A stretch of DNA of 64,000 nt from Candidatus Altimarinota bacterium (GCA_028713225.1 JAQTOS010000007.1:1-64000), one strand, 5' to 3'. Positions 31,145-47,695 are shown, counted from the first letter of the stretch. The notes: generated by a model from the letters alone, not told the origin. Program-made: numbers and translations.

Positions 31145-32335
31145 ATGAAAAAAATTATCATCTTAGTTTTATCTATATTTTCTTTACTATATTTAAATAC
31201 AGCACTAGCTTGAAGTCTATGAGTTTCACCTCTTAAATACGAATTTACCGTTAATTCTTGAGATTCTAAATCTTGACTAATAAAAGTATCAAACAATAGT
31301 GATTCTCCTATGACTCTTTATACTTCAAAAGAAGATTTTATAGCTTGAGATGATACAGGTACTCCGAAATTTGTAAAACCTGAGGATCAAACTTATCCTG
31401 AATTAAGTCTAGCTAATTGGATAAAATTAGAAGAAGAAAACCTTACTCTAGCTCCTAGAGAAACAAGAGAAGTAAAATTTAAAATAAATGTTCCAAAAGA
31501 TTGAGAACCTGGATGACATTATGGTGCGATATTTTTTTCTCCATGAGTATGAGCTTCATCTCAAGTTTCTATAGTACAAAGACTTTGAGTATTACTTCTT
31601 ATAAATGTTCCTTGAGATGTTAAAATAAGTTGATTTGTTGATAAATTTTCAGTTTGACAAAATAAATCTGGAAAATTTGAAGAAAAAACAAATTTTGCTA
31701 ACTTCCCTATAAATTTTGATTTATTATTCAAAAATGATTGAAATGTTCATTTAAAACCAGTTTGAAAAATAGAAATATTAGATGAAAATAATATTCCTTT
31801 GAAAAATATATGAAGAGCTACTCTAACTTCACCAGCTTGAGCATATATATGAGAAAAAATGGTGGATTTCATTCCTCTTAATGAGACATTATGAAATGTT
31901 TTACCAAAATCGGAAAGAAAATTTGAATCTTCTTGGGAATGATTTTGATATACTGTTTTAAATACAGACTGAACTAAATCAGTAAAATTTAAAAACCTTA
32001 GTGATTATTATGCTGAAGTTGCATCAGAAAAACAAGCTTATCTAAATTTTTGGGAACAAGTACATACAAGAACAGTTTCAAAAAATATGAAAGTAGTTAT
32101 GACATTGAGTTATGAATGAAAAGATAAAGAGAAAAAAGATTTTAAAGAAGAAAAAACTATAAAAATAGCATATGATGAAAAATATGTTTGAATAAATTAT
32201 TATTTGATTTTTATATTAATTTTATTAATATGAGCTCTTTTCTATTATTTCACACAAGTTGCTCCGAAAAATCAAGCTAGAAAAGAAGAAGAATTAAAAA
32301 GAAAAATAATGGAAGAAATGAGCAAACATAAATAA
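31145..32335 (+). CDS. DUF916-like membrane-anchored surface protein
   Basis: 396 residues with a signal peptide ending LNTALA, a folded extracellular region from about residue 25, and a C-terminal membrane segment (YLIFILILLIGALFYYF) with a basic cytoplasmic tail. The opening GSLGVSPLKYEFTVNSGDSKSGLIKVSNNSDSP is like the DUF916 (WxL-interacting) family known from Gram-positive WxL clusters. A second beta domain with GEPGGHYGAIFFSP follows. It probably anchors or assembles the proteins encoded next to it (inference). First gene of a tight four-gene run with gaps of 22, 12 and 13 nt. Confidence 0.85.
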
Positions 32336-32357
32336 TATTTACTAAAATTACTCGAAA

Positions 32358-32783
32358 ATGAAAAAAATAATTTCAATATTATCGCTTACAGCAATTTTGT
32401 TTTACTATTCAAACTTAGCCTCAGCATTAAATTCAGTAGTAGTTTCTGCTGTTGTTTGAAATTTAAATCATTCTCCAGTTGTAATAAATGTAGTCCCAAA
32501 CAATAATCCAAAACTACTAAAAACTAATTCACTTCAAAATTTCAGTTTATATTTTAGAGATGATGAAAAAGATATAATTTATTATACAATAACACCTAAG
32601 GATTGATATACAAATCCTATAAATTGAGTAATAAATACAGCTAATTATGATTCAGCATCATGAGCATATATAAACTTTTCATATCTTGCTCCATCATTAA
32701 AAGTTTGAACTTCGAACGTAAATATCATATTAAATGATTGACCTAATATTGTATCTAAAGATATAAATTTATACATTTATTAA
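32358..32783 (+). CDS. small exported protein
   Basis: 141 residues with signal peptide (MKKIISILSLTAILFYYSNLASA) and a single predicted beta domain (VVVSAVVGNLNHSPVVINV, FSLYFRDDEKDIIYYTI). The pattern NHSPVVINVVPN with repeated beta strands and a DDEKDIIYY turn suggests a cadherin-like or Ig-like fold. No family recognised with confidence. Confidence 0.8.
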
Positions 32784-32795
32784 AATCTAATAACT

Positions 32796-33800
32796 ATGTC
32801 TAAATTTGCTAAATTATCCCTTGTATTAATATCACTATTTTTCTTAGTTTTTATTTCATTTTATGAACTAAGAAAAATAGATTTTTTTGATACCAATTCT
32901 ATTTTTGATTTTATTATAAAAAATAATTCTAATGATTCTGGTGTTTGAAAAGATGTTTTTTATAAAAAATGAGATAATATTGAATATACTTTTTTTATGA
33001 AAAAGGATTTTGATTGAACTATTTCAATTAATACCGATAAATTAGATAAAATAATGAAAGATTATGATATCTATATAGATGATGAAAAAATAAGTAAAGA
33101 TGATTTAAAAAATATAAAAATCAATGATAAAAAAATAATAAAATTCAAATGAACTGCTCTAAAAGATAATATAATAAAAACAAAAGATGAAACAGTTGAT
33201 GATTTAGTTGATATAAACATAATTAAAGAAGAAGAGAAAAAAGATGATGTAAAAATATTAACTTGAGCATTAGCTAATGTAAAGCTTTCTAATCTAAGTT
33301 TCAATTCAAATATAAATAATCTACTTATTATCTCTTGAGATAATTTATGAAATATTCAATATGTAAATATTTGATGAAAAACATTTACTCCAAAACTTGA
33401 TAACAATAAATTATATATATGAATAGATAAAGATTCATTTGCTAGTTGAGATTATTTCTTATTATTTCAACTTAAAAATAATCAAATACAAACTTATCAA
33501 TCAAAAATAAAATTCACTTACGATTCAAATTCTATAAATATATCACAAATAACTCCATCTTCAATAAAAAACGATATAGATAGATATCTTGTAATTCAAT
33601 GAAATAACCTATCAAAAGTTATTAGAGTACAGTTAAGTAATAATGTTATATTAAAAGATACAAGTTTTAAAGTAATAAATAATAATGTAATAACTATAAA
33701 AATTCCTGCCTGACTTAATCCATGAAATTATTTTATAAATTTTATGTGAACACAGTGAATATTTGAGCTAAAAAATTCTCAATTTACAATTACAAACTAA
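32796..33800 (+). CDS. membrane-anchored or exported protein with IPT-like repeats
   Basis: 334 residues. One N-terminal hydrophobic helix (LSLVLISLFFLVFISFY) without an obvious cleavage site, then a charged helical linker rich in Asp and Lys to about residue 150. The second half appears to hold two beta domains, with NIQYVNIGGKTFTPKLDNNKLYI and VIRVQLSNNVI typical of IPT/TIG folds. Third gene of the run. Confidence 0.75.
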
Positions 33801-33813
33801 TTAAATTTAAATT

Positions 33814-36800
33814 ATGAAAATCATGAATAATAAAACAAGTATCCTTGGGGTAAAAAAAATATCTAGCTTATTAGCACTTATATCAATATTATTTTCTATT
33901 ACTAGAATAGATTTAATTAGTGCATCAATTATAGCAGGGCCTGATTTTAATGTAAAAATATCAGCAAATAATGATTCTACATATACAACAAGTTTAACTA
34001 ATGTATGAGTAGGAACTGCTTTAAGCTTCAAAAATGTTGCAATTTTAGATAATTCTGGAACTACAAACTGAACTTATAGTGTAAACTTCCCTGCTTGATT
34101 TACTTATAATTCTTATGATGCTTCACAAAATACTTGTGGATTTTCTCTGATATCATCAACAAATTCAAGTTTTAAATATTCTTATTCAAATTCTTGAGCG
34201 ATTTGTAATTCAGTAATTATTTTAAATTACACAGTTAATTCGAGTGCAACATCTGGATTAAATAATATAAATCTTCTAGATACAACAGATATAGCACATC
34301 AAAATATTATTTGACAAGTATCTGTTGATGTAAAAACAAATAATTTTATATCTAGAGCTCAAACTCTTGATTTAAACTGAAACTGATATATTGATGCCTA
34401 TAAATTAAATTTAGCAAATTCAAATAATACTTGAACATTATCTTGATTACAAGTAAATTGAGTTTCTGTTTGAACAGTTTATTCTTCATGAACTTCTTAC
34501 ATACTTCCTTTTTCTGATGATATTTGGAATACTTGAGATTTACCTCAAATAACTTGAACTTTTGATTGACTTACAATCTGAAATAATGACATAAATGAAG
34601 AAGATCTAGCTAGACCTAAAATATTAAAAATCAATTCGACCCTATTATCTACTCTTTGATCTCAATCTTTAAATATATGAACTTGAAATCTATTGTTTGA
34701 TATTTCTGAAAATCTAATCCCTAGTAGTACTTGATCTTTTACTTTATTAAAATGAACTTGAACTATTACTTGAACTTTTTCTTTCTTAAATGATAATCTA
34801 ACAAAGCTTTATTTTGTTACAAGTTCATCTCTTTCAGTATGAACATATACATTAACAGCAACATCTTGAGCTAAAGATTGGTCATCTAATTGAAATATTA
34901 TTGATGTGAGTATTCCATCTTTAATAGTAGCTGACTCTAGTGCACCAACTTGAATTGCTATTTGAACTAGTACTTGAATAAGTATAAATGATTGAGCTTC
35001 ATTAACTAATAACAATTATGTTCAATTAACTCTAGCAGCAATAGATGATATATGAGTTAGTCAAATGATGATTTCAAATGTTTCTAATTTTTCATGAGCA
35101 TCTTGGGAAACTTATAATACTAGTAAATTAAATTGGGATTTATGAACTTGAGCTGGAACAAAAACAGTTTATATAAAATTCAAAGACGAAGCTTGAAATA
35201 TTAGTTCTACATATAGTGATTCTATAGAATATGGACCAACAAATAATTATATAAGTTTTAATAATTTAAATTCTATTTATACAAATAATTCTAGTATAGA
35301 TTTATCTTGATCTTGTAATTATATTAGTAGTACTTGATCTACATTATGAACTACTTTAAGTTGATCTGTAAATTGAGTTTCTATCTGATCTATAAATTGT
35401 AATTCTCAAATTTGGTCTCATACTTTTAATTTAGCTGATAATACTACAAATCTAATAAGATTAGAATTTGATAATAATTCAAGTATTAATAATGAAATAA
35501 GTATAATAAGGCCTATTCCAACTTGTAGTACACCATCTAATGCGACTTTAGTACCTTGAACTACTTATCCAACTTGTGATTTCACTTGTAATACAGGATA
35601 TACAAAACAATGATGATCTTGTATAGCAAAATCTACCGCTATTACAACTGCTATATCAAATTCTCGTACATTTAGTTTCACAGCATTTACACTTTATTAT
35701 AATTCTCCTCAAACTAAGTCATCACTACCATTATCAATTGCAAATTGAACCTCAACTCTTACAACTACTTTTACTCTAGCTTCAAATTGAACTGATGTTT
35801 CTCTTTCAAATTCATCAGAGGCTATATCTTGTAATTCATGATACCACGTAAGTTGAACTTCTTGTGCAATAAACCAATCTTCTTGATGAGGAGGTGGTGG
35901 ATGATCTATAACTCCAACTTGTACAGATACTATGTTACAATGTAGTCTATATAATAATTCATATATTTGGACAAGAAAATCTGGAGTAAGTTGTACTTGA
36001 TGAAATCTATGATTATCTTGTATTCCTGCAAGTCAAACTTGAACTACAAATACTTGAACAACTACTACTCAAACTGGAACCACTAACACTAGTACATGAA
36101 ATACTAATCAATGATGATGAACTAATACTGGAACAACTACTACTCAAGTTCCTGAAATAATAGAAATAGTAAAAGCAGATTGAACAAAAATATATTTAAA
36201 TGATATAGCAAACCACTTTGCTAAAAATTATATAATAGCTCTTGCATCTTCTGGAATAGTAAATGGTTATCCAGATAATACATTTAGACCAGATAATAAT
36301 ACCTCTAGAATAGAATTTTTAAAAATGCTTCTAAAATGACTTGGAAAAGATTATTCAAGTTATGCTGGACAAAAAAATCCTTTCTGGGATGTAGATGATA
36401 ATTCTTGGCAATCACGAGTAGTGGCAAAAGCTTTAGCTCTTTGAATAATTAGTCAAAATAAATATTTCAATCCAGATAAAACTATATCTAGAGAAGAAAC
36501 TATGAAAATGTTAATTAGAACTTCTTGAATAAATTTACTGAGTGTAACAAATTCTAGTTTTGCAGATTCAAATGGATGGGCAAAAAATTACATAGAAACA
36601 GCTTATAAGGCCTGAATAATTAGCTGACAAAGTATATGATGAAAATTAATCTTTAGACCTACTGATAATATAACTAGAGCAGAGGTTGCAAAAATAATAG
36701 TAAAAAGTATAGAATTACTTAATTCTTGATTAACTAATCAAACAAATACGAGTACAACTAATACTATAATTAATAAAGTAAAAGATGCTTATACTTTAAC

Positions 36801-37014
36801 AAAAGAATTAAAATTCTGAGATTATGGTGATGAGGTATGATATTTACAAGATATAATGAAACATTTCAATTATTTTGATTATGATTCTACAAAGTACTTT
36901 TGAAATATAACTAAAACAGCTTACATAAACTTTGCAAAAGATAAATTATGAATTATATCTGATTGAACTATGTTGAAGTCGGATATAAGTAAAATAATGG
37001 AATTAAACTGGTAA
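33814..37014 (+). CDS. large SLH-domain surface protein
   Basis: 1066 residues. An N-terminal hydrophobic signal segment leads to a beta-rich N-terminal domain and a dockerin-like calcium loop (DLNGNGYIDAYKLNL). Ig-like beta domains and Cys-rich linkers follow, then seven consecutive Gly at residues 691-697 and a Gly/Thr/Gln-rich spacer near 745-790. Three SLH repeats span about 790-970 (YPDNTFRPDNNTSRIEFLKML, FADSNGWAKNYIETAYKAGI, FRPTDNITRAEVAKII). A last domain at 995-1066 (LKFGDYGDEVGYLQDIM) resembles peptidoglycan-binding type 1. SLH and the last domain should tether it to the wall. Ends the four-gene run, followed by two palindromic terminators. Confidence 0.9.
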
Positions 37015-37016
37015 AA

Positions 37017-37061
37017 CAATAAATAAAGCTTTCACTTATTAAGTGAAAGCTTTATTTATTG
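37017..37061 (+). terminator. perfect 22-bp hairpin terminator
   Basis: Arms 37017-37038 and 37040-37061 are exact reverse complements with a single central T; the core is AAAGCTTTCACTTA. It starts 3 nt after the SLH gene stop. Confidence 0.85.
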
Positions 37062-37080
37062 TAGAAAAAAATTGTACAAT

Positions 37081-37112
37081 AAAAAACTCTTGGAAATTTC
37101 CAAGAGTTTTTT
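37081..37112. terminator. perfect 16-bp bidirectional terminator
   Basis: AAAAAACTCTTGGAAA is exactly mirrored, with no loop at all, giving A and T runs on either end. It lies between two convergent genes and can serve both; minus-strand gene 37145-37792 ends 32 nt away. Confidence 0.9.
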
Positions 37113-37144
37113 ATTTATTTAAGATTGCTATGAATAGCGAAAAA

Positions 37145-37792
37145 TTAGAATGAACCTACAACTGTAAAAGTAATAGTATCAGAGTAATCTGAAGCAGCAG
37201 CTGTTTGTTCAGCTGATTTAGCAGCAACTGTAAAAGTTACATCATTATTAGTAAGATCAGTTTTTTCTGGTCTATTTGATGTATATATAACTACATCTTT
37301 AGCACCAGTAGTAACTTCAGTAGCAGTAGTAACAGATGAAGTAAAATCAGCAACTGAAGAATCTACTACACCAGTAGAAGAAGCAAAAGTATATGATTCT
37401 TGTACACCATCAGTTAATTCACTATTGATTATACCTGAAGCAGTATTACTAGTTAAACCACCATTAGCAGAAGAAGCTGTAACAACTATACCATTAGTAG
37501 CGTTAGTTCCTAATTCCATACCAAGATTTGCTGATTTACCAACAGTATCTAAAGTACCTAGAGCTAAACCACCAGTAGAAACAGTCATATTTAAAACTGG
37601 ATCAACAGAAGCAGTAACGATAACTGGAGTTAATACTCAAGTTGCAGTTCCTGGGAAAGTTCCAGAAAAATCTATAGATGAAGTATTTACCCCAGTAATA
37701 GTACCAGTACCAATTTGTGCCGCCATAGCAACATTCATAGCTAACATAGAAACTAATCCTACAGAAGCTAAAGTTTTCTTAAATGTTTTCAT
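37145..37792 (-). CDS. exported beta-rich surface protein that avoids UGA
   Basis: 215 residues with a signal peptide (MKTFKKTLASVGLVSMLAMNVAMAA). The rest is a Ser/Thr/Ala/Val-rich beta protein without Cys or Trp, in the style of a structural surface or fibre subunit (TFTVAAKSAEQ, YSDTITFTVVG at the end). Only one of 21 Gly codons is TGA, in a neighbourhood where large proteins use TGA for most Gly. With a strong promoter of its own and short length, that suggests very high expression; a major surface or S-layer-like protein is possible (inference). Convergent to the SLH gene, divergent from 37988. Confidence 0.85.
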
Positions 37793-37847
37793 AAACAAAA
37801 ACTTAAAAAATAAAAATACACGCGTGTCTTTATATTCAAAGACCACA

Positions 37848-37876
37848 TTATTATGGTGATTTTTTGGAAAAGTCAA
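37848..37876 (-). promoter_or_regulatory. promoter of the UGA-poor surface protein
   Basis: On the minus strand TTGACT (37876-37871), a 17-nt spacer and TAATAA (37853-37848). The -35 box lies in one arm of the hairpin at 37866-37895. The leader to the ATG at 37792 carries a CACGCGTG palindrome (37830-37837), unusual in this AT-rich sequence. Confidence 0.6.
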
Positions 37877-37895
37877 GACTAATTTTGACTTTTCC
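37866..37895. repeat. 11-bp inverted repeat carrying two outward TTGACT boxes
   Basis: GGAAAAGTCAA (37866-37876) pairs with TTGACTTTTCC (37885-37895). Each arm holds a TTGACT on one strand, so it sits across the -35 region of the minus-strand promoter and could be an operator. A T run follows on the plus strand, so a terminator is also possible. Confidence 0.6.
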
Positions 37896-37926
37896 ATTTT
37901 TTTATCAATAAAAAAGTGTAAAAAAC

Positions 37927-37955
37927 TTGACATTTATAGCTAAATGATGTAAAAT
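37927..37955 (+). promoter_or_regulatory. promoter of the 674-residue protein gene
   Basis: Consensus -35 TTGACA (37927-37932), a 17-nt spacer and TAAAAT (37950-37955), 32 nt before the ATG at 37988. It is the best sigma-70-type promoter I see in the window. Confidence 0.75.
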
Positions 37956-37987
37956 AAGGAAGTATTTATATTTTTATTAAATTTACT

Positions 37988-40012
37988 ATGAAAAATAAAG
38001 TTACTAATTTTATTGCAGGATTAGGTCTTGCAGCACAAATTGCATCTGGACAACCTCTTCCAGATAAAACTGTTGAACAACCATCTCTTGATCAAATTTT
38101 AAAATGATCTCCTGAAAATCCTGGGTTTTGAGATATAACAAAAACAAAAGTTACTGAAATAATTGATATGGTATCGCCAGCAAGTATAGTTGAGAATATT
38201 GATACTAATTCTTCTGAAACAAAAATTTCTATTAAAAATTGAACTTCTTTAGAAACATGATTAGCTAATAATTTTTTAGATAATAATTGAACTTCTTCTA
38301 ATATTAAATGATTTAAAACTAAATCTGATACATTATTTAGTGTTTATTGAGTATCAAAAGAAATTACGGGTACTTCTTATAGTTGAGTTTGATTAGATAT
38401 TAGAGGAAAACAATTTGAAGTAAAAGCAGAAAAATGAAACAATCATACTTTACTTTGAGGTGTTTGAGTATTAAATGTAAATGAAGATGTTTATATTAAA
38501 TGATGAGCTGGATTATTAAATTTAGGTGATGTTCCATTATGAACAGAATGAACTAAATATGATTTAAAATCTACTAATATAGGAGCTGCAGTTTGATATA
38601 GATGAACTATTTCAGATTCAACTCATACAAATCTAGAGCTTTGAAGAGTTGCTAATACTGTTACTTGAACTTTTGGTAAAGTAACTTGAAATACTGACTT
38701 TATTGAAGCGGCTGTAGAAATGGATTTTAAAAATGATATGAAAGCTAGACTAGCTTGAAGTTTAGAAAGAAGTACTGCAAAAACTAATTATGGTGATAAT
38801 TTTAGTGATACTACAGCTGGTGTTTCTACTACACTTTACCCAACTAAAGATTTAGCATTTGAAATTTGATATACTGGTTTAGACTTACATAGCTGAGATT
38901 ATAATGTAAAAGCATGAGTAAGCTTCCCTTTTAGTGAAAAATGATTTGAATCAGCTAGACCATTTGTAAAAGCTGATAAAAATATTTGAACTCATACTAC
39001 TGCTTGAATTACTTATCAATCAGATATAGCAAAAGTAGATATGTCATTAAAACATACGTTTGAAAGAAATGTGTTAGCAACAAATATAAATCCTACTATG
39101 TCTAAATGAGTTGATTCTCAAGCTAAAAAATATGAAGAAGAACAAAGACTTAGAAATACTACTCCTCATGCAGTAAACGATACTACATCTACTGCATACA
39201 ATACAGCAAAAACTTGAATTGATGTTTTAGCTAATGATACTTATACTAATTGAATAGCCCCTACTTTAACTGGAGTTATAACTAACAAAGTTGGTGGTGA
39301 TTTCGTAGTTAATAATTGAAAAATTGACTTTACTCCTACTAATAATTTTTCTTGAGCTGCGTCTTGTACATATGAAATTCAAGGAACTAATTGAGTTAAA
39401 ACTACTGCTACATTAACCGTTAATGTTTGATCTGATAATATTGCACCAAATGCTCCAACATGATTATCATTAAATTCTTGAGCTACTTATACTAATTCTA
39501 CGACAGTTAACTTAGATTGATTAACTTGACCTGGAGATGCTGCATATTGGTTTGTTTCAGAATCATCTTCAGCTCCTCTTACTTGAGATGCTGGATGGGT
39601 TTCTAGTAAACCTACAAGTTATACTATGAGTTCTTGAGATGGAACAAAAACAATTTATGTTTATGTTAAAGATGCTGCTTGAAATGTGCAAAGTGTTTGA
39701 GTTAGTGATACTATAATTCTTGATACAGTAGCAGTAGCAAATAATAGTGTTAATTTTACTCAGGTAAATGAATGAGCTTGAATTAATCAAAATGAAACAA
39801 TACCTTCTTGAGAAGCAATAAAAATTGTGTCATGAGCTACAATAGGGTGAGCTGTAATCCCAACAACTTGAATATATGAAACTTCTCCAGTAGTAGCGAT
39901 TACTTGAACAGCTGGCTTATGAGGTACTTACTCTTGAACAATAACTGTTGAAGATCAAGCATGAAATCAAAAAATTATTACTATTAATTTAGTAGTAAGT
40001 ACTCCTATATAA
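37988..40012 (+). CDS. exported protein with barrel-like region and cadherin/Ig-like repeats
   Basis: 674 residues. The first 60 residues include a weakly hydrophobic FIAGLGLAAQIASG export-like segment. Residues about 85-385 show alternating strands with aromatic ends (YIKGGAGLLNLGD, DLAFEIGYTGLDLHSGDYNVKAG, VDMSLKHTFERNV), the look of a transmembrane beta-barrel. Residues about 395-480 form a cadherin-like or CshA-type domain (AVNDTTSTAYNTAKTGIDVLAND), followed by Ig-like domains with the WLTGPGDAAYWFV strand. It stands behind a strong promoter and 87 nt before the giant gene. The barrel reading is by eye and needs structure prediction. Confidence 0.8.
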
Positions 40013-40099
40013 AGTTTTTAACTTAAACAAAAACAAAAACAAAAAAATTGAAAAAAAGTAAAAAATGTTTATTATCGATTCAATATACAAATTATAATA

Positions 40100-43000
40100 A
40101 TGAAAAATATGTTTAAAAAAATCTCAGTTTTGTTTTTGATAGTCTCTTTTATATGTTCTAATATTTTAAACATTCGAGTTTTTAATATTAGTTATGCTGC
40201 GTGAATAGATCTTTATCAACAAAAACTAAGTAATGATACTAGTTCTGCTTTTTCTAATCCTACAGATAATTTAGCAATACAGCCTGATCAATATTTTAGA
40301 TTTGAATCATATCTAAGAAATAATGAAGCAACTACTATAACAAATGTATCATATTACACAAATTTTCCATCGGATATAGTTTATAGTGGAACAACAACGG
40401 CTGCAACTCAAGTTAATTGAGTTTCGACATATGTTGTACCTATAACATCATTCAATCCTCCCACATCTATTCCTAATTATATAAATTGATTAAGTAGTCT
40501 TACTACTTGATCAGTTTATGCTGTTAGAAGGGTATTACTAAAATTCCCTACAAATCACGGTGTTTATAGTAATAATTTATCTACTTATTTTACAGCTAAT
40601 TCTTGATTAACATCAAATACTAGAAATAGTATTGTATATGTAAATGTAAAACCACATATAATAGATTATAGTTTTTCAAAATCATCTATAGTGTGAAATG
40701 GTAGTGATTCTACAGATTTAACAGTTAAAGTAAAAGATTATAATTGATGTACAAATATTGATGGCTGAGTAATTACAGCTAATTTATCTAGTTTATGATT
40801 ATCTAGTACTGAAAGTTTAACATATGATTCTTGTGATATTGATGGAAAAACAGCTATATTTAAAAAAATATGAATTACTAGTTTGTCCGCTGTATGAGAT
40901 AAAACTTTATCTTATACAGATTTTTATGCTAAAGATGAGGATAACAATCTAACAGATCCAAATGATACAAATACAAGTTTCTGAACTGAAGATAAAAAAA
41001 CAAATTTAGTATTAAATATAGCTAGTTCAAATGCACCTGTTATTACTCTATGAGTACCTAGTTTATCAAAAGTATCAACAATATCACCATATAATACTTC
41101 TGATATGAGCTTTTCTTCAAATCAAGTTGGTTTATATAAGATAGCTTTATCTAATTGTAATAATACTGCTATACGAACTTGATCTTATGATACAATATGA
41201 GCAAATTTAACGTATACTATAAATTCTTCTTTATTACGAGATTGAGATAATACAATATTTGTTTGTCTAACAAATATTAATTGAGACGTATGATCATCAA
41301 ATGTACTTATAACAAAAGATACAAGTGCTCCTAATATTTATTCAATGTGATTATCTCCATGAGCTGTTGTTTTAAATAATTCGACAGGGAGTATTTACTG
41401 TTCAGAAGATTGACAATTCAGATTTTGAGTTTGATCTAATTACACTTCTTATAAAACAAGTGTAAAAGATATTAAAAATGATGACACTATTCTAAATTCT
41501 TGGTTAACTTTATGATCTAATACTGTTAATGCTTATTGTAAAGATAATGTATGAAATGAATCTACAACAAGTTTAAGTATAACAAAAGAAGCTTTACCTC
41601 CTGCTATGAGTTCTAGCTGATTAACTTTAATTGATAATGACATTGCCTGGGACTGAGTTGATGGTAGAGATTTAAAAGTAACCTGGGATGCTAGTATTTG
41701 AGCATCTTATTCATCATTTGAATCATATAGAATATATGTATTACCAGAAAATACTGCATTTACTTGAACTTGGATATGAGCCATTTATGATAAAAATATT
41801 AATATGTGGACTTGATCAAGTAATATAGTAAACGATAGTTTATGAAATCCTCTTGCATGATGAAAATATATAACATATGTTGCAATAATGTGAACATCGT
41901 TAAATCTTTGAAATCCAGCAAGTGCAACGTGAACTTTAGTATCAGATATAGTTCCTCATCCATCTGTATTATCTGCAACATTCACAAATACTCAAAATTT
42001 ACAAGTTAAATTTGATGCTCCATTAAAAACAGATTTAAGTATACATAGTGCTAGTTGATTTATTTTTCAAGTAGCTTGAACTACTTATACATGAACTAGT
42101 ATAAGCTCAGTATCAAATGATACAATAAATGTTACTATTCCTAATATTATAAATACCGCTGCAACTTGAACCCTTAATGTTCTTACTTGAGCTACTTGGG
42201 GTGTTCCAGTTGATGGATCTTATAATAATGCTACTTGATGAGTATTAATTAGTGATTCTATAGCTCCTAATATTAGTAATTTTGCAACTTGATCTACAGC
42301 TTATTATCAAAATTATTATTCTTGAAGTATTGATTTTAATTATACAATTTCTGAAGCGTTAAAGTCTTGATGATCTACAAATATACAATTTACAAGAGTG
42401 TGAGGAAATAATGATGCCTTAAAAACATACTATATTACAAATATCTCTAATCTAACAACTGGTTCTCATACTGAACATATTAATTTAGCTAGTTTATGAC
42501 TTGTTTCATGAACTTATTATGAAGTTAGATTTATTGCCCAAGATTTAATTTGAAATAATACAATAAGTTCCCCAGTAACTATAAAATTTGATAATGCTTG
42601 ACCAAGTATAGTAAATATAAACCCTTTTGGTCCTCAAAAGGTACTTGGTATATTAAATCCTACTTTTACATGGTTAACATCTACTGATGACTCTTGAAAT
42701 GGATCTGGAGTAAAATGATATAAATTAAGAGTTTATACTTGAAATACTTCTTATACTTCTTGGAATACATGTACTTGATCATATACTGAATATAATATTA
42801 CGAATTTATTAGATTTATCTAAACAAGCTACATTAGCTAATTTATATAATTATGCTTGGTGAGTTTTTGCTTATGATAATATGGAAAATATTTGAACAAC
42901 CTCTACTTGTGATAATTTCTATATAAATAATCTAGTTCCTAGTTTCTCAAATAGTTCTATAACAGATACTATATTAAATACTACAAGTTATACTAAATGA

Positions 43001-46000
43001 TGAAATAATCTAGTTATTAAATCAACTATAACAAATTCAAATTCTTCTAATATATGGTTAAATGCTTCTAGTATAAAAGATAGTTCTTATTCTAATATTT
43101 CTTGTTCTAGTCCAGTATCTGGTGTAACTTGTAATTATAGTGCAAATATTGCTACTTATACTTTTTCAGCTTGAGCTTTAGCTTCCATATCAAGTTGAAC
43201 AAAACAAGTACAATTCACAGCTGCAAATACGTCATGAATAAATACTTGAACAACTCTAGCGTCAATTACTCTTGATAACACAGTACCTATTGTTGCTAGT
43301 GATACTTTAACAACTCCTATTTCTTGAACTATAGGTTGAACTACAACAAATATTACTTGGACTCCTAGTAAAATAAGTGATAATATATGAGTTTCTTATG
43401 TAAAATTAGAATATTCTTCTGATTGAGGTTCTAACTGGAATCTTATTTCAACGTGAGCAAATTCTGGATCTTATCCTTGGGATATATCAAGCTTAACTTC
43501 TTGATCTAATTACAAAGTAAAAATATCAGCTTATGATTTAGTTTGACAATCAGATTTTGCTATTTGATGAACATTTGCTATAGATAAAATAGCTCCTACC
43601 GTCCCCTCTACCAGTATAACTTATCCAAGTAATACTTGAATAAAATTAAAATGATGATCAAATGTAAACATAACTTGGAATAATGCTTGAATAACAGACA
43701 ATATAGGACTTGCTGCAAATCCTATAACTTTATACTATTCTATTGATGGATGAACTAATTACACTCAAATAGCTACTAATTTAGTAAATAATTGAACATA
43801 TTCTTGGACTGTTCCTAGTTTGAATAATACTACAATGAAAATCAAATTAGAAGCATCTGATAATGTTGGAAATAAATCTTTTGATATATCTGATAATAAT
43901 TTTGAAATTGATTCTACTGCTCCTGTTTTAAATATTACTTATGCGTGAAATGGGTGAAATACTCCTCAAACAAATAAATATATTAATAATTCTTGAATAG
44001 ATTTAAGTGCTACTATTACAGATACAAATTTATCTTGATGAGATGCTACTTACTCATTTTATGATCAAACAACTAATACTTATTGGAATTGAACTACTTA
44101 TGTAGGAACAGAAGTTTATAATACTATAACTTCTCTTAATGCTGCATCTTATAATTTAGCAAATACTATAAATCCTAGTATAACTAATTGAGATACATAT
44201 AAATTGAAAATAAAAGCTAGTGATATAGTTGGAAATTCTTTTACGACTACGCAAATAACATACCAATGAGATACAGTTAATCCTAATGTATGATTTATAA
44301 ATTGAAATACTGTTTATTCTAGTTGAACTGTACTTATTGCTTGAACATCTAGTGATGCTAGTTCTGGAGTAAGTGCTGTAAAGTTAGAAATAACAAATTG
44401 ATCTAATTATTTTGATTGATCTTCATTTCAATGATCTTTAACACAACTTGCAACTACTACAAGTAATTCTTATACTAATTGGAATTATAATTTTACTATT
44501 CCTGGGATAGTAGCTGATTGAACTAGTATAAATGTAAAATCTATTGCTTATGATAAGGCTTACAAAACTCCAAATTTCTGATCTGGAAATATAACAGTAA
44601 TAAAAGATACAACTGGGCCTATGATTTCAACTTGAGTTATAACATATCCTGCTGGATGAGAATCTTTCAGATGAGGACAAAATATAAATATCACTTGGAA
44701 TACTTGAGCAATAAGCGATGCTGTTTCTTGAATAGCTACAAATTCTATATCTTTGGAATATTATAATTGAACTGCTTGGCTTCCTTTAGCTAGTGGTATT
44801 CCAAACTCTTGATCTTATAACTGGAATATTGCAACTATTGATTACAATAATGCAAAAATAAGAATTACAGCTACTGATAATGTATGATTATCAACTTCTC
44901 AATTAAGTGCATGATTTTTGGTAGATAGTCTACCACCTCATGTAAGTAATGTAGAAACTATGGATAATGATGCTAATGGACAAGTTGATTGATTACTTGT
45001 TAGTTTTAGTGAACCTATAAAAGATAATTCTATAAATACTAGTAAATTTTCTATCTCAAATTGAATAAATATAACTTGAACTGCTACAGCTTGAATTACA
45101 GATGATAATCAAATAACTTTATATTTCACAAATACTTGATCGAGTAATCTCACACCAACTTTGACTTATACTTCATGAGCTGTAACAGATTTCGTTGGGA
45201 ATAATCTTATTCCTTGAAATATGTTATCAGTAGATAAAGTTGTTCCTAGAGTGCAAAGTGTCCAAATTTTTGATACTAATGCAAACTGAAAATTAGATAA
45301 AATAGAAGTTGTAATGAGTGAGGCTCTTGCTGCAAGTTCTGTAAATAATTGATGGACTATAGATAATGCTTATAATTGAATGAGTATTGCTTCAGTAAAT
45401 ACTTCATCAAACAAAATAAATTTGATATTAAATGAATCTAGTGCTTTTAATACAGCAACTGGGAATTTAGCGCTTAGTTTAAATAATTCAACTTATAGTG
45501 ATTTAGCTTGAAATTTAGCTTGAAATATAACATCTACTCCTATAGAAGACAAAGCTAGTCCTGTTTTACTAAGTTCTAGTACAAGCGACAATAATTCAAA
45601 TTATAAGGTTGATAAAATTGATTTATTATTTAGTGAAAATATAGCAAATATTACTCAGAGTAATTTAAGTTTATCTTATTTATCTACTTGATCTAGCATA
45701 ACTAGTCTTACATGAACTGGAACTTCTACATTAAGTTTAAATCTAGCTGAAACTAGTTCAGATAATGATTCTTCTTATAAACCAAATGTAATTTATAGCT
45801 GAACTTCTCTAAAAGATTCATCAAACAATACTACTGCTAATTTTAACAATACTGTTACAGATTGAGTAAGCCCTAAAATAATTTCTAGAGAAACTCTTGA
45901 TTTAAATAATAATGGGAAAGCTGATGCAGTTAAAATAAGTTTTAGTGAAAATGTTAATTGAGATATTTCATCTACTGTTGCTTGAGTAAATTCATATAAT

Positions 46001-47695
46001 ATAGCTTCTTATGCAACTTGATCTAATTATATAATTGCAAATGTTGATGAAAAAGATACTATAGATACTTCCCTATTACTTGATTCGAAAATCATCTCAA
46101 ACTCATCTCTAAAAGATTCTGATTGAAACTTAGTATTAGCTGAAGTATGATATTCTAGTTCTACTGATAAAATGTGACCCGTTATATCTTTTGCTAGATT
46201 TGATTGAATAGATAAACTATATCTTAGTTTTAGTGAGAATATTACAAATGCTAGTTTGATTCCTTCAAATTTTGTATTAAATTGAAGTACTGCAAGTATA
46301 ATATGAGTAAATTTCTGAGCTTGAACAAACTCAGCTATATTAACTTTGAATTCTGCAAATATAACATATGCAACATCAACTATAAGCTTTGCTATAAATA
46401 CAGCTATAGATTCATTATGAAACAAACAATCTAATCAAGTATTTGCTCGTATAAGTCCATCTGTTGTAATAAATGAAGTGATGTATTCTAGTACTCAAGC
46501 AAATCAATATATAGAACTTAGAAATATGTGAAATACTTCTGTTTCTATGTCTGGCTGGGTATTACAAAATACTGCTAATTCTGGAACTACAAATATAAGT
46601 CTTCCAGCTTGAGCCTCAATTGGAGCTAATTGATATTATTTAATAGCAAACTCAAGTTCAGCTATATCTATATTATCTTGATCTATAACACCAGATTTAA
46701 TAACAAGTTCTTTGAGTCTAAATAGTATAAGTCAATCAAATATTGTTCTTAAAGACAGTATTTGAACTAATTATGATTCAGCTGTTGCATCTCCTTGGCC
46801 AGCTTGAAATGCAAGTCAAAATATATCTATGGAAAGAAAAAATGTTCCTTGAAACTGAACAGTTGGAACAAATTGGTATAGTGCAGTAGCATCTATTTGA
46901 TTTGATGATACTAATCCTAAGTGAACTCCGGGATCTGCTAATAAAATAGATGTAACTCCTCCTGTTATTTGATCATTTAGTCCTTCTGACAATACTCTAT
47001 TCCCTATCTGAGATAATATAAATTTAACTTATAATTATTCTGATGATATAGCTTGAGTATCAACTTGAACTTCTAATATAGTTATAGAAAAATATAATTG
47101 AGCTTCATTTGATATTATAGCTTCTCGAATAAGTACTAGTACTATTGACGTAACATCTGCAAACTATACTTTAAATCATCTTAATTTTGGTAAATATAAA
47201 GCAACATTTACTATAGATGATAAAGCTGGGAATACTGTAACTCAAGTTATAAATTTCTATGTTGATAAAGTAGAGTTTGTAGTTTCAACTTGAAGTATAG
47301 ATTTATGAAGTGTAAAAGCTAATATATGAAAATATGCTACGGTAGAAGAATCTATAACAGTTAAAACACTTTGAGCATGATTTAATTTATATAACTGAAA
47401 ATCTGGAGCATTAAGTAAATGATTAACGGATATTCCTGATTATTCTTGAGCTACTAATTATTGATTTGGTTTTGATTTATATAAAAATGAAGCTTGAGTT
47501 ATAACAGATTATAGTTCAATTATAAATCCAATAAATAATACTATTGTTTGAAATTCTATAAAAGATGTATCAACTTCAGATTGAACACAAAAAACGTATT
47601 TTTATAAACTTAAATATTATGTTAAGGTTTGAGATGAACAAGCTGCTTGAAATTATTCTACAAATGCTAATTTTAGTTTAATTCTAAATTATTAA
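40100..47695 (+). CDS. giant repeat adhesin-like protein with lamin-tail domain
   Basis: 2531 residues. An N-terminal signal segment (KKISVLFLIVSFICS) is followed by about twenty Ig-like or fibronectin-like beta repeats. Recurrent signatures are STAPV or DSTAP starts, ITWN, YSWDI, ASDNVGN and SDGG.NW; SbsA-type Ig-like units (VDKVVPRVQSVQIFDTNANGKLDKIEV) come later. A lamin tail domain lies near residues 2115-2200 (VINEVMYSSTQANQYIELRNMG, then SGWVLQN). The C-terminal 150 residues are an atypical beta region without sortase motif or SLH. Most Gly are UGA. Size and composition suggest a long surface stalk or adhesin; attachment would have to come from partner proteins. Confidence 0.9.

Follow-up and report, generated by a model that had tools for sequence, protein, structure and literature searches.

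The closest described systems are the WxL (Csc) clusters of Firmicutes, in which a small WxL protein and a large WxL protein are encoded with a WxLIP of the order DUF916-DUF3324-TM, the small and the large proteins having a terminal domain in common (PMC9772566). A search of the literature found no paper connecting WxL with Gracilibacteria or Patescibacteria. Giant surface proteins are carried by related lineages, which live as predators or depend on a host (PMC8080830, PMC11452946), and those of Vampirococcus lugosii have been proposed to serve in prey attachment; the part of that report available to us describes no anchoring partners for them (PMC8080830). Here we describe a locus of seven genes that we read as a surface-display system working like the Gram-positive WxL cluster, with a DUF916 protein as the putative dock for the terminal domains of a small protein and a giant protein (probability roughly 0.6).

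The resemblance in logic to WxL clusters, which an earlier note made from the sequence alone had pointed out, is borne out by one DUF916 protein clustered with a small and a large protein that carry a common C-terminal domain, the same composition as in the published clusters (PMC9772566, PMC10599100), with a domain that is not filed as WxL. As in Csc clusters, there are three parts, the large protein carries the domain C-terminally, the small protein consists of little beyond the domain, the DUF916 protein has a signal peptide and a C-terminal membrane helix, and an extra wall-anchored protein is encoded. Unlike in Csc clusters, the terminal domain is without both WxL motifs and unrecognised by PF13731, DUF3324 was not detected, SLH takes the place of LPxTG in the extra anchor, the giant reaches 2531 aa against 500-1000 aa there, and the genes are written in code 25 in a different phylum. 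With the giants of V. lugosii (PMC8080830), the locus has in common a very large adhesin-like surface protein in a related lineage.

Genetic code and gene content of the locus

Translation with table 25 (TGA = glycine) placed 91% of the window, the whole 64,000-nt stretch of DNA that was analysed, in ORFs of at least 150 aa, as compared with 3% for table 11, which leaves almost no coding sequence and is ruled out by this near absence of ORFs. The window is of gracilibacterial origin, with TGA read as glycine. The named relatives nearest to it are MAGs of 'Candidatus Gracilibacteria', and the genome assembly that contains it is 1.24 Mb in size and 97% complete.

The seven exported proteins that the earlier note had described as encoded together correspond exactly to table-25 ORFs at 31145-47695 (Table 1), and all seven look exported as judged by eye: the signal peptide is clear in five, an uncleaved membrane anchor stands at the N-terminus of the 334-aa protein, and the signal of the 674-aa protein is weak, the weakest of the seven. 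The genes do not, however, form one operon. Three groups alternate in direction, the first with four plus-strand genes (31145-37014; gaps of 22, 12 and 13 nt), the second with a lone minus-strand gene (37145-37792) that lies between the two plus-strand groups, and the third with two plus-strand genes (37988-40012 and 40100-47695). A promoter scan gave no excess over shuffled sequences.

Table 1. Features of the locus (positions counted from the first letter of the window).
Feature	Position	Strand	Family or remark
DUF916 (WxLIP-type) protein, 396 aa	31145..32335	+	PF06030
141-aa exported protein	32358..32783	+	without known family
334-aa protein, N-terminal membrane anchor and C-terminal IPT/TIG	32796..33800	+	PF01833
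SLH protein, 1066 aa	33814..37014	+	PF00395
Small partner	37145..37792	-	A2 family; adjoins DUF916 gene in most relatives
674-aa exported protein	37988..40012	+	PF17963
Giant partner, 2531 aa	40100..47695	+	signal peptide, many Ig-like domains, lamin-tail
Giant C-terminal common domain (residues 2390-2531)	47267..47692	+	A4 family

The gene for the 141-aa protein comes after the DUF916 gene in close relatives, and relatives of the protein were found in eight loci; those of the 334-aa protein, of which the PF01833 match is at the cut-off (E 4e-4), were found in nine. These two are the small beta proteins that had been seen to follow the DUF916 gene, and the 22-nt gap is as claimed, but neither corresponds to the small protein of a WxL cluster; its counterpart is the product of the minus-strand gene at 37145-37792.

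The 1066-aa protein, previously called wall-binding, does contain three SLH domains (residues ~796-960; PF00395, E 7e-31 over three stretches), preceded by an Ig-like region and followed by a peptidoglycan-binding-like segment at the C-terminus (residues ~997-1053), for which a SleB-type match is weak (E 0.005). Since SLH motifs are present at several other sites of the same genome, together with one gene for a CsaB-type pyruvyl transferase (PF04230, PS_pyruv_trans, above cut-off), SLH anchoring is plausible in this organism. The three SLH domains and the PS_pyruv_trans gene are as in CsaB-dependent SLH S-layer proteins, the wall polymer being predicted here; unlike in S-layer systems, SLH is found on one member of the locus, and the giant and the small protein are without it.

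The 674-aa protein had been described as barrel-like after its repetitive N-terminal beta region. This region is followed by Big_9/cadherin-like and Ig-like domains (PF17963, E 2e-10), and the recognised domains are only of the Ig/cadherin-like type. An outer-membrane barrel is not supported, as Omp85 (PF01103) had no match in the genome, in agreement with the published view that Gracilibacteria have no outer membrane (PMC6851277).

The DUF916 protein and its membrane helix

The 396-aa protein consists, in this order, of a signal peptide, DUF916 (residues 32-132), a beta region, a C-terminal membrane helix and a short charged tail. Its reading as DUF916/WxLIP-like, which by the earlier note a lack of HMM support would have refuted, was upheld by PF06030 with 33.4 bits (E 5e-8) against the curated cut-off of 27.3, and by comparison with the profile of Firmicutes WxLIP, which was matched by the profile of 24 DUF916 relatives (E 8e-16, in the DUF916 part) and by that of a closer subset (E 7e-12, 185 columns), the two matches spanning 137-185 columns. 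A search of the whole genome found it to be the sole PF06030 copy (37.1 bits). Reading of the sequences recognised in the window protein and in its relatives the signal peptide and C-terminal TM helix of WxLIP. DUF3324 (HBD), the second WxLIP domain, was not detected, there being no Pfam match past residue 137, and the C-terminal half of the family aligned with WxLIP only around the membrane helix.

The tail after the helix is Lys-rich and zinc-ribbon-like in several relatives (L044, L045, L049 and L053 among them), with the pattern CxxC...CPYCG. These tails suggest a cytoplasmic C-terminus for the DUF916 protein and a helix placed in the bacterium's own membrane, which argues against the published proposal that the C-terminal helix of WxLIP goes into host membranes (PMC10599100).

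The terminal domain common to the small protein and the giant

The small partner is composed of a signal peptide and a single ~190-aa beta domain with the end 'DYSDTITFTVVGSF'. Its layout, with AGxYxDTxTFTVTGNF at the end, is similar to that of the terminal domain of the giant, which carries KTLGAGFNL and 'AGNYSTNANFSLILNY' and lies downstream of the lamin-tail domain (residues 2120-2227; PF00932, E 3e-13). In the A4 family of giant domains T, G and F of KTxGAGFxL are invariant, as is a Y close to the C-terminal end. Direct comparison of A4 with the profile of the gracilibacterial small family gave a match over 28 columns only, but when relatives of the small family from all Patescibacteria were added, the match spanned the whole domain (118-120 columns) with E 6e-7 and a score of 45.4, the column-permuted controls reaching 14.7 at most (n=60). 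A separately made alignment gave an hhalign E of 2.1e-7 over 120 columns, the scores in the two alignments being 45-48, and four other beta-domain families of the locus had no comparable match with the small superfamily (scores of at most 15). This match, well above the controls, shows by profile comparison that the giant ends in ~140 residues whose homologues form a family spread over Patescibacteria, with the small partner as a member. The same ~140 aa constitute a candidate docking domain, contrary to the earlier view of a giant without its own anchor.

The absence of a WxL motif, as earlier remarked, is correct for the literal motif: in place of the two Trp-x-Leu motifs stand F-x-L in the giant, and V-x-V and F-x-V in the small partner. 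PF13731 (WxL) gave no match in the genome at E <= 10, nor to any member of the small- or giant-domain families. It is possible, if doubtful, that the common domain is a highly diverged WxL domain in which Trp is replaced by Phe, Tyr or Val, the locus being then a plain WxL cluster of a different phylum. Where WxL domains have GAGWxL and WTL, the giant has GAGFNL and NFSL, phylum-wide relatives have Tyr or Val, and in PF13731-positive proteins from two same-class genomes Phe or Tyr already stands in place of the first Trp. When WxL sequences from Firmicutes plasmids and PF13731 matches from Patescibacteria were taken for comparison, the last ~40 columns of the small family aligned with the WxL profiles (E about 1e-3), the terminal ~42 columns scoring 27.9 where permuted controls reached at most 13.8, and the Firmicutes WxL profile ranked the small family over other exported ORFs, modestly (p 0.007; p at least 0.89 in 40 permuted controls). 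However, this alignment is limited to the terminal motif, with a probability of about 20%, and the giant domain is no nearer to WxL than are unrelated beta families; its rank enrichment with the WxL profile is also given by column-permuted profiles and was rejected as an effect of composition. The solved WxL chain 9i25 is not reached by the sequence profile of the family and is not among the 50 fold matches listed, although it may not be in the fold library. Given no PF13731 match, a resemblance restricted to the ~40 residues at the end and the absence of a WxL fold from those listed, the common terminal domain is not filed here as WxL; its identity as WxL is a possibility.

The AlphaFold2 models of the small partner (mean pLDDT 79, mostly at least 90 from residue 61 onward) and of the terminal region of the giant are good. 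The fold search with the latter returned generic Ig domains only, partly because an Ig-like domain is included in the model. For the small partner, the best solved folds by Foldseek were pilins (CfaB, PapG, Fim pilins, CsuA/B), TasA, a cannula protein and other beta-sandwiches. Such folds would be in line with a donor-strand assembly, an unlikely reading in our estimate, in which the small and giant domains are incomplete sandwiches that receive a strand from the DUF916 protein, a chaperone or anchor bound to the membrane, and the small protein may polymerise like pilins or TasA. The low confidence of the N-terminal ~60 residues of the model, the insertion of a DUF916 strand into WxL predicted by others (PMC10599100) and the tandem small copies of some relatives point in the same direction; on the other hand, the Foldseek E values are weak (best 3e-3), the TM-scores are low, and many beta-sandwiches resemble pilins. 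A bolder form, rather improbable, would see here a so far unrecognised family of C-terminal docking domains in Patescibacteria, distinct from WxL, for which the DUF916 protein acts as a PapD-like, membrane-bound strand donor, folding and displaying giant adhesins or fibres.

Gene linkage and the proposed display system

The DUF916 protein is present in 48 of 60 relatives. Linkage was counted by coordinates, the counts being lower bounds because of the ends of draft contigs: among the 44 relatives having both a small and a DUF916 gene, 37 have the two within 6 kb, small and large genes are clustered in 22/42, and all three are clustered in 20/41. The conservation of gene order among relatives, suggested as a check by the earlier note, was therefore observed. 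The small gene and the DUF916 gene are on different contigs in G043, G045, G049 and G050. Two modules can be told apart, module A with the order large protein - small protein - DUF916, and module B with the order DUF916 - 141 aa - 334 aa (TIG) - SLH, the latter kept in about ten relatives, L035, L036 and L043 among them. Both are joined in one stretch in close relatives (e.g. L034, L038, L040), where the giant gene stays beside the cluster; in more distant relatives of the same family only module A is kept and the DUF916 protein is longer, and about half of the relatives have the large gene at another place in the genome. Some relatives carry two copies of the small gene in tandem. The window has both modules in rearranged form, the small gene being inverted. 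DUF916, small and large proteins make up the core unit, whereas the SLH protein is part of a second module that can be separated from it.

Among 287 sampled species of Patescibacteria, PF06030 was found in 88 (about a third), domains of the small-partner (A2) type in 32, and PF13731-like matches in 15, five of these above cut-off. When coordinates were compared by hand, PF06030 and A2 genes were within 10 kb on one contig in 14 of the 19 genomes having both, that of the window excluded, and PF06030 and PF13731 genes were within 5 kb in 11 of the 13 having both, two of them in the same class. As DUF916 genes adjoin A2 genes in some genomes and PF13731 genes in others, the DUF916 protein has, judged from gene neighbourhood, two alternative kinds of small partner in Patescibacteria. 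The PF13731-type pairs (e.g. G326, G147, G101; G214 and G276 in the same class) agree with our locus in phylum, in the DUF916 partner and in the adjoining small exported beta protein, but the WxL domain is recognisable there and not in the family of the locus. A GAGW-type small protein beside a DUF916 gene in Clavibacter suggests that the pairing extends beyond Patescibacteria; on reading, the DUF916 neighbours on Deinococcus and Weissella plasmids included no clear partner.

The three gene groups alternate in direction, and relatives may have the large and SLH genes apart from the rest. Still, the least probable of the readings is a loose island of surface genes without relation to one another, in which DUF916 protein and adhesin would not work together, as single-copy families (a single match in the genome for each of A2, A4 and PF06030, all within the locus) are co-located here and repeatedly in relatives, and two of the proteins have a common domain.

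From the genes, homologies and linkage described above, we infer docking, its mode and an adhesive role for the WxL-like display system as follows. The DUF916 protein would be exported and held by its C-terminal helix in the cell's own membrane, reaching into or through the peptidoglycan. The DUF916 protein and/or the wall would serve as the docking site for the homologous beta domains of the small protein and of the giant. The giant's Ig-like arm, of ~2,400 residues, would thereby project outward, most likely for attachment to a host or prey bacterium. The SLH protein may bind a secondary wall polymer and reinforce the layer, its SLH and peptidoglycan contacts serving to stabilise it. The opposed direction of the small gene, between two gene groups, counts against a joint system.

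The locus is a good candidate for attachment to other cells, and bears on the question of how wall-bearing Patescibacteria without an outer membrane may fix giant adhesins and hold on to their hosts. For this question it names a defined, single-copy and testable set, the DUF916 protein, the small partner and the giant with the common terminal domain, in a phylum in which true WxL/DUF916 pairs also exist, outside Firmicutes.

Hairpin and slots near the DUF916 gene

A hairpin followed by a run of T separates the opposed small gene from the 674-aa gene of the window (see table), and looks like the terminator of the four-gene run. Among members of one taxonomic order (L041, L042 and L043 versus L035, L036 and L040), the G+C content spreads widely from 0.23 to 0.53, and in-frame TGA ranges from 5 to 68 per 1000 codons; table 25 may not apply to all of them. 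The protein in the SLH slot differs strongly from relative to relative, and the small-partner slot of L039 and L041 is occupied by larger proteins, for which BLAST detected no link to the small family but which a WxL profile places at rank one.

Coordinates of the features
Locus	Position	Strand	Feature
Window	37865-37896	+	hairpin, 14 pairs, then seven T
L035	12580-14886		slot region compared
L036	12772-15924		slot region compared
L039	2273-3436		slot region compared
L041	4298-5209		slot region compared
L112	3-365		end of signal-peptidase-like gene, immediately upstream of WxL gene
L120	2069-3367		DUF916-like, LysM-like stretch
L130	2071-3210		DUF916-like, LysM-like stretch
L130	3-1133		DUF916-like, LysM-like stretch
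L062	4056-5870		Clavibacter plasmid, region with 208-aa protein beside DUF916 gene

C-terminal ends of DUF916 proteins

At eight loci (L044, L045, L048, L049, L052-L055) the membrane helix of the DUF916 protein is followed by a Lys-rich terminal tail with CxxC...CPYCG; this zinc-ribbon-like tail suggests that the C-terminus is cytosolic. Three DUF916-like proteins carry a LysM-like stretch (KKGDHL...) after the helix, on the unexpected side of the membrane as judged by topology.

WxL proteins outside Firmicutes

WxL has been described as near-exclusive to Firmicutes. PF13731-type WxL proteins were found at Patescibacteria loci L112-L122, L125 and L127-L131, the majority adjoining DUF916 genes, in genomes G326, G073, G139, G147, G101, G133, G214, G276, G083, G119, G161 and G203, five of which exceeded the Pfam cut-off. 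The gene order at L112 recalls SipW/TasA pairs. The small Clavibacter protein, bearing GAGWYVL and AGDYSSTITLSL, is encoded beside a DUF916 gene and glycosidases, and with the DUF916 protein it is a WxL-like pair in an actinobacterium.
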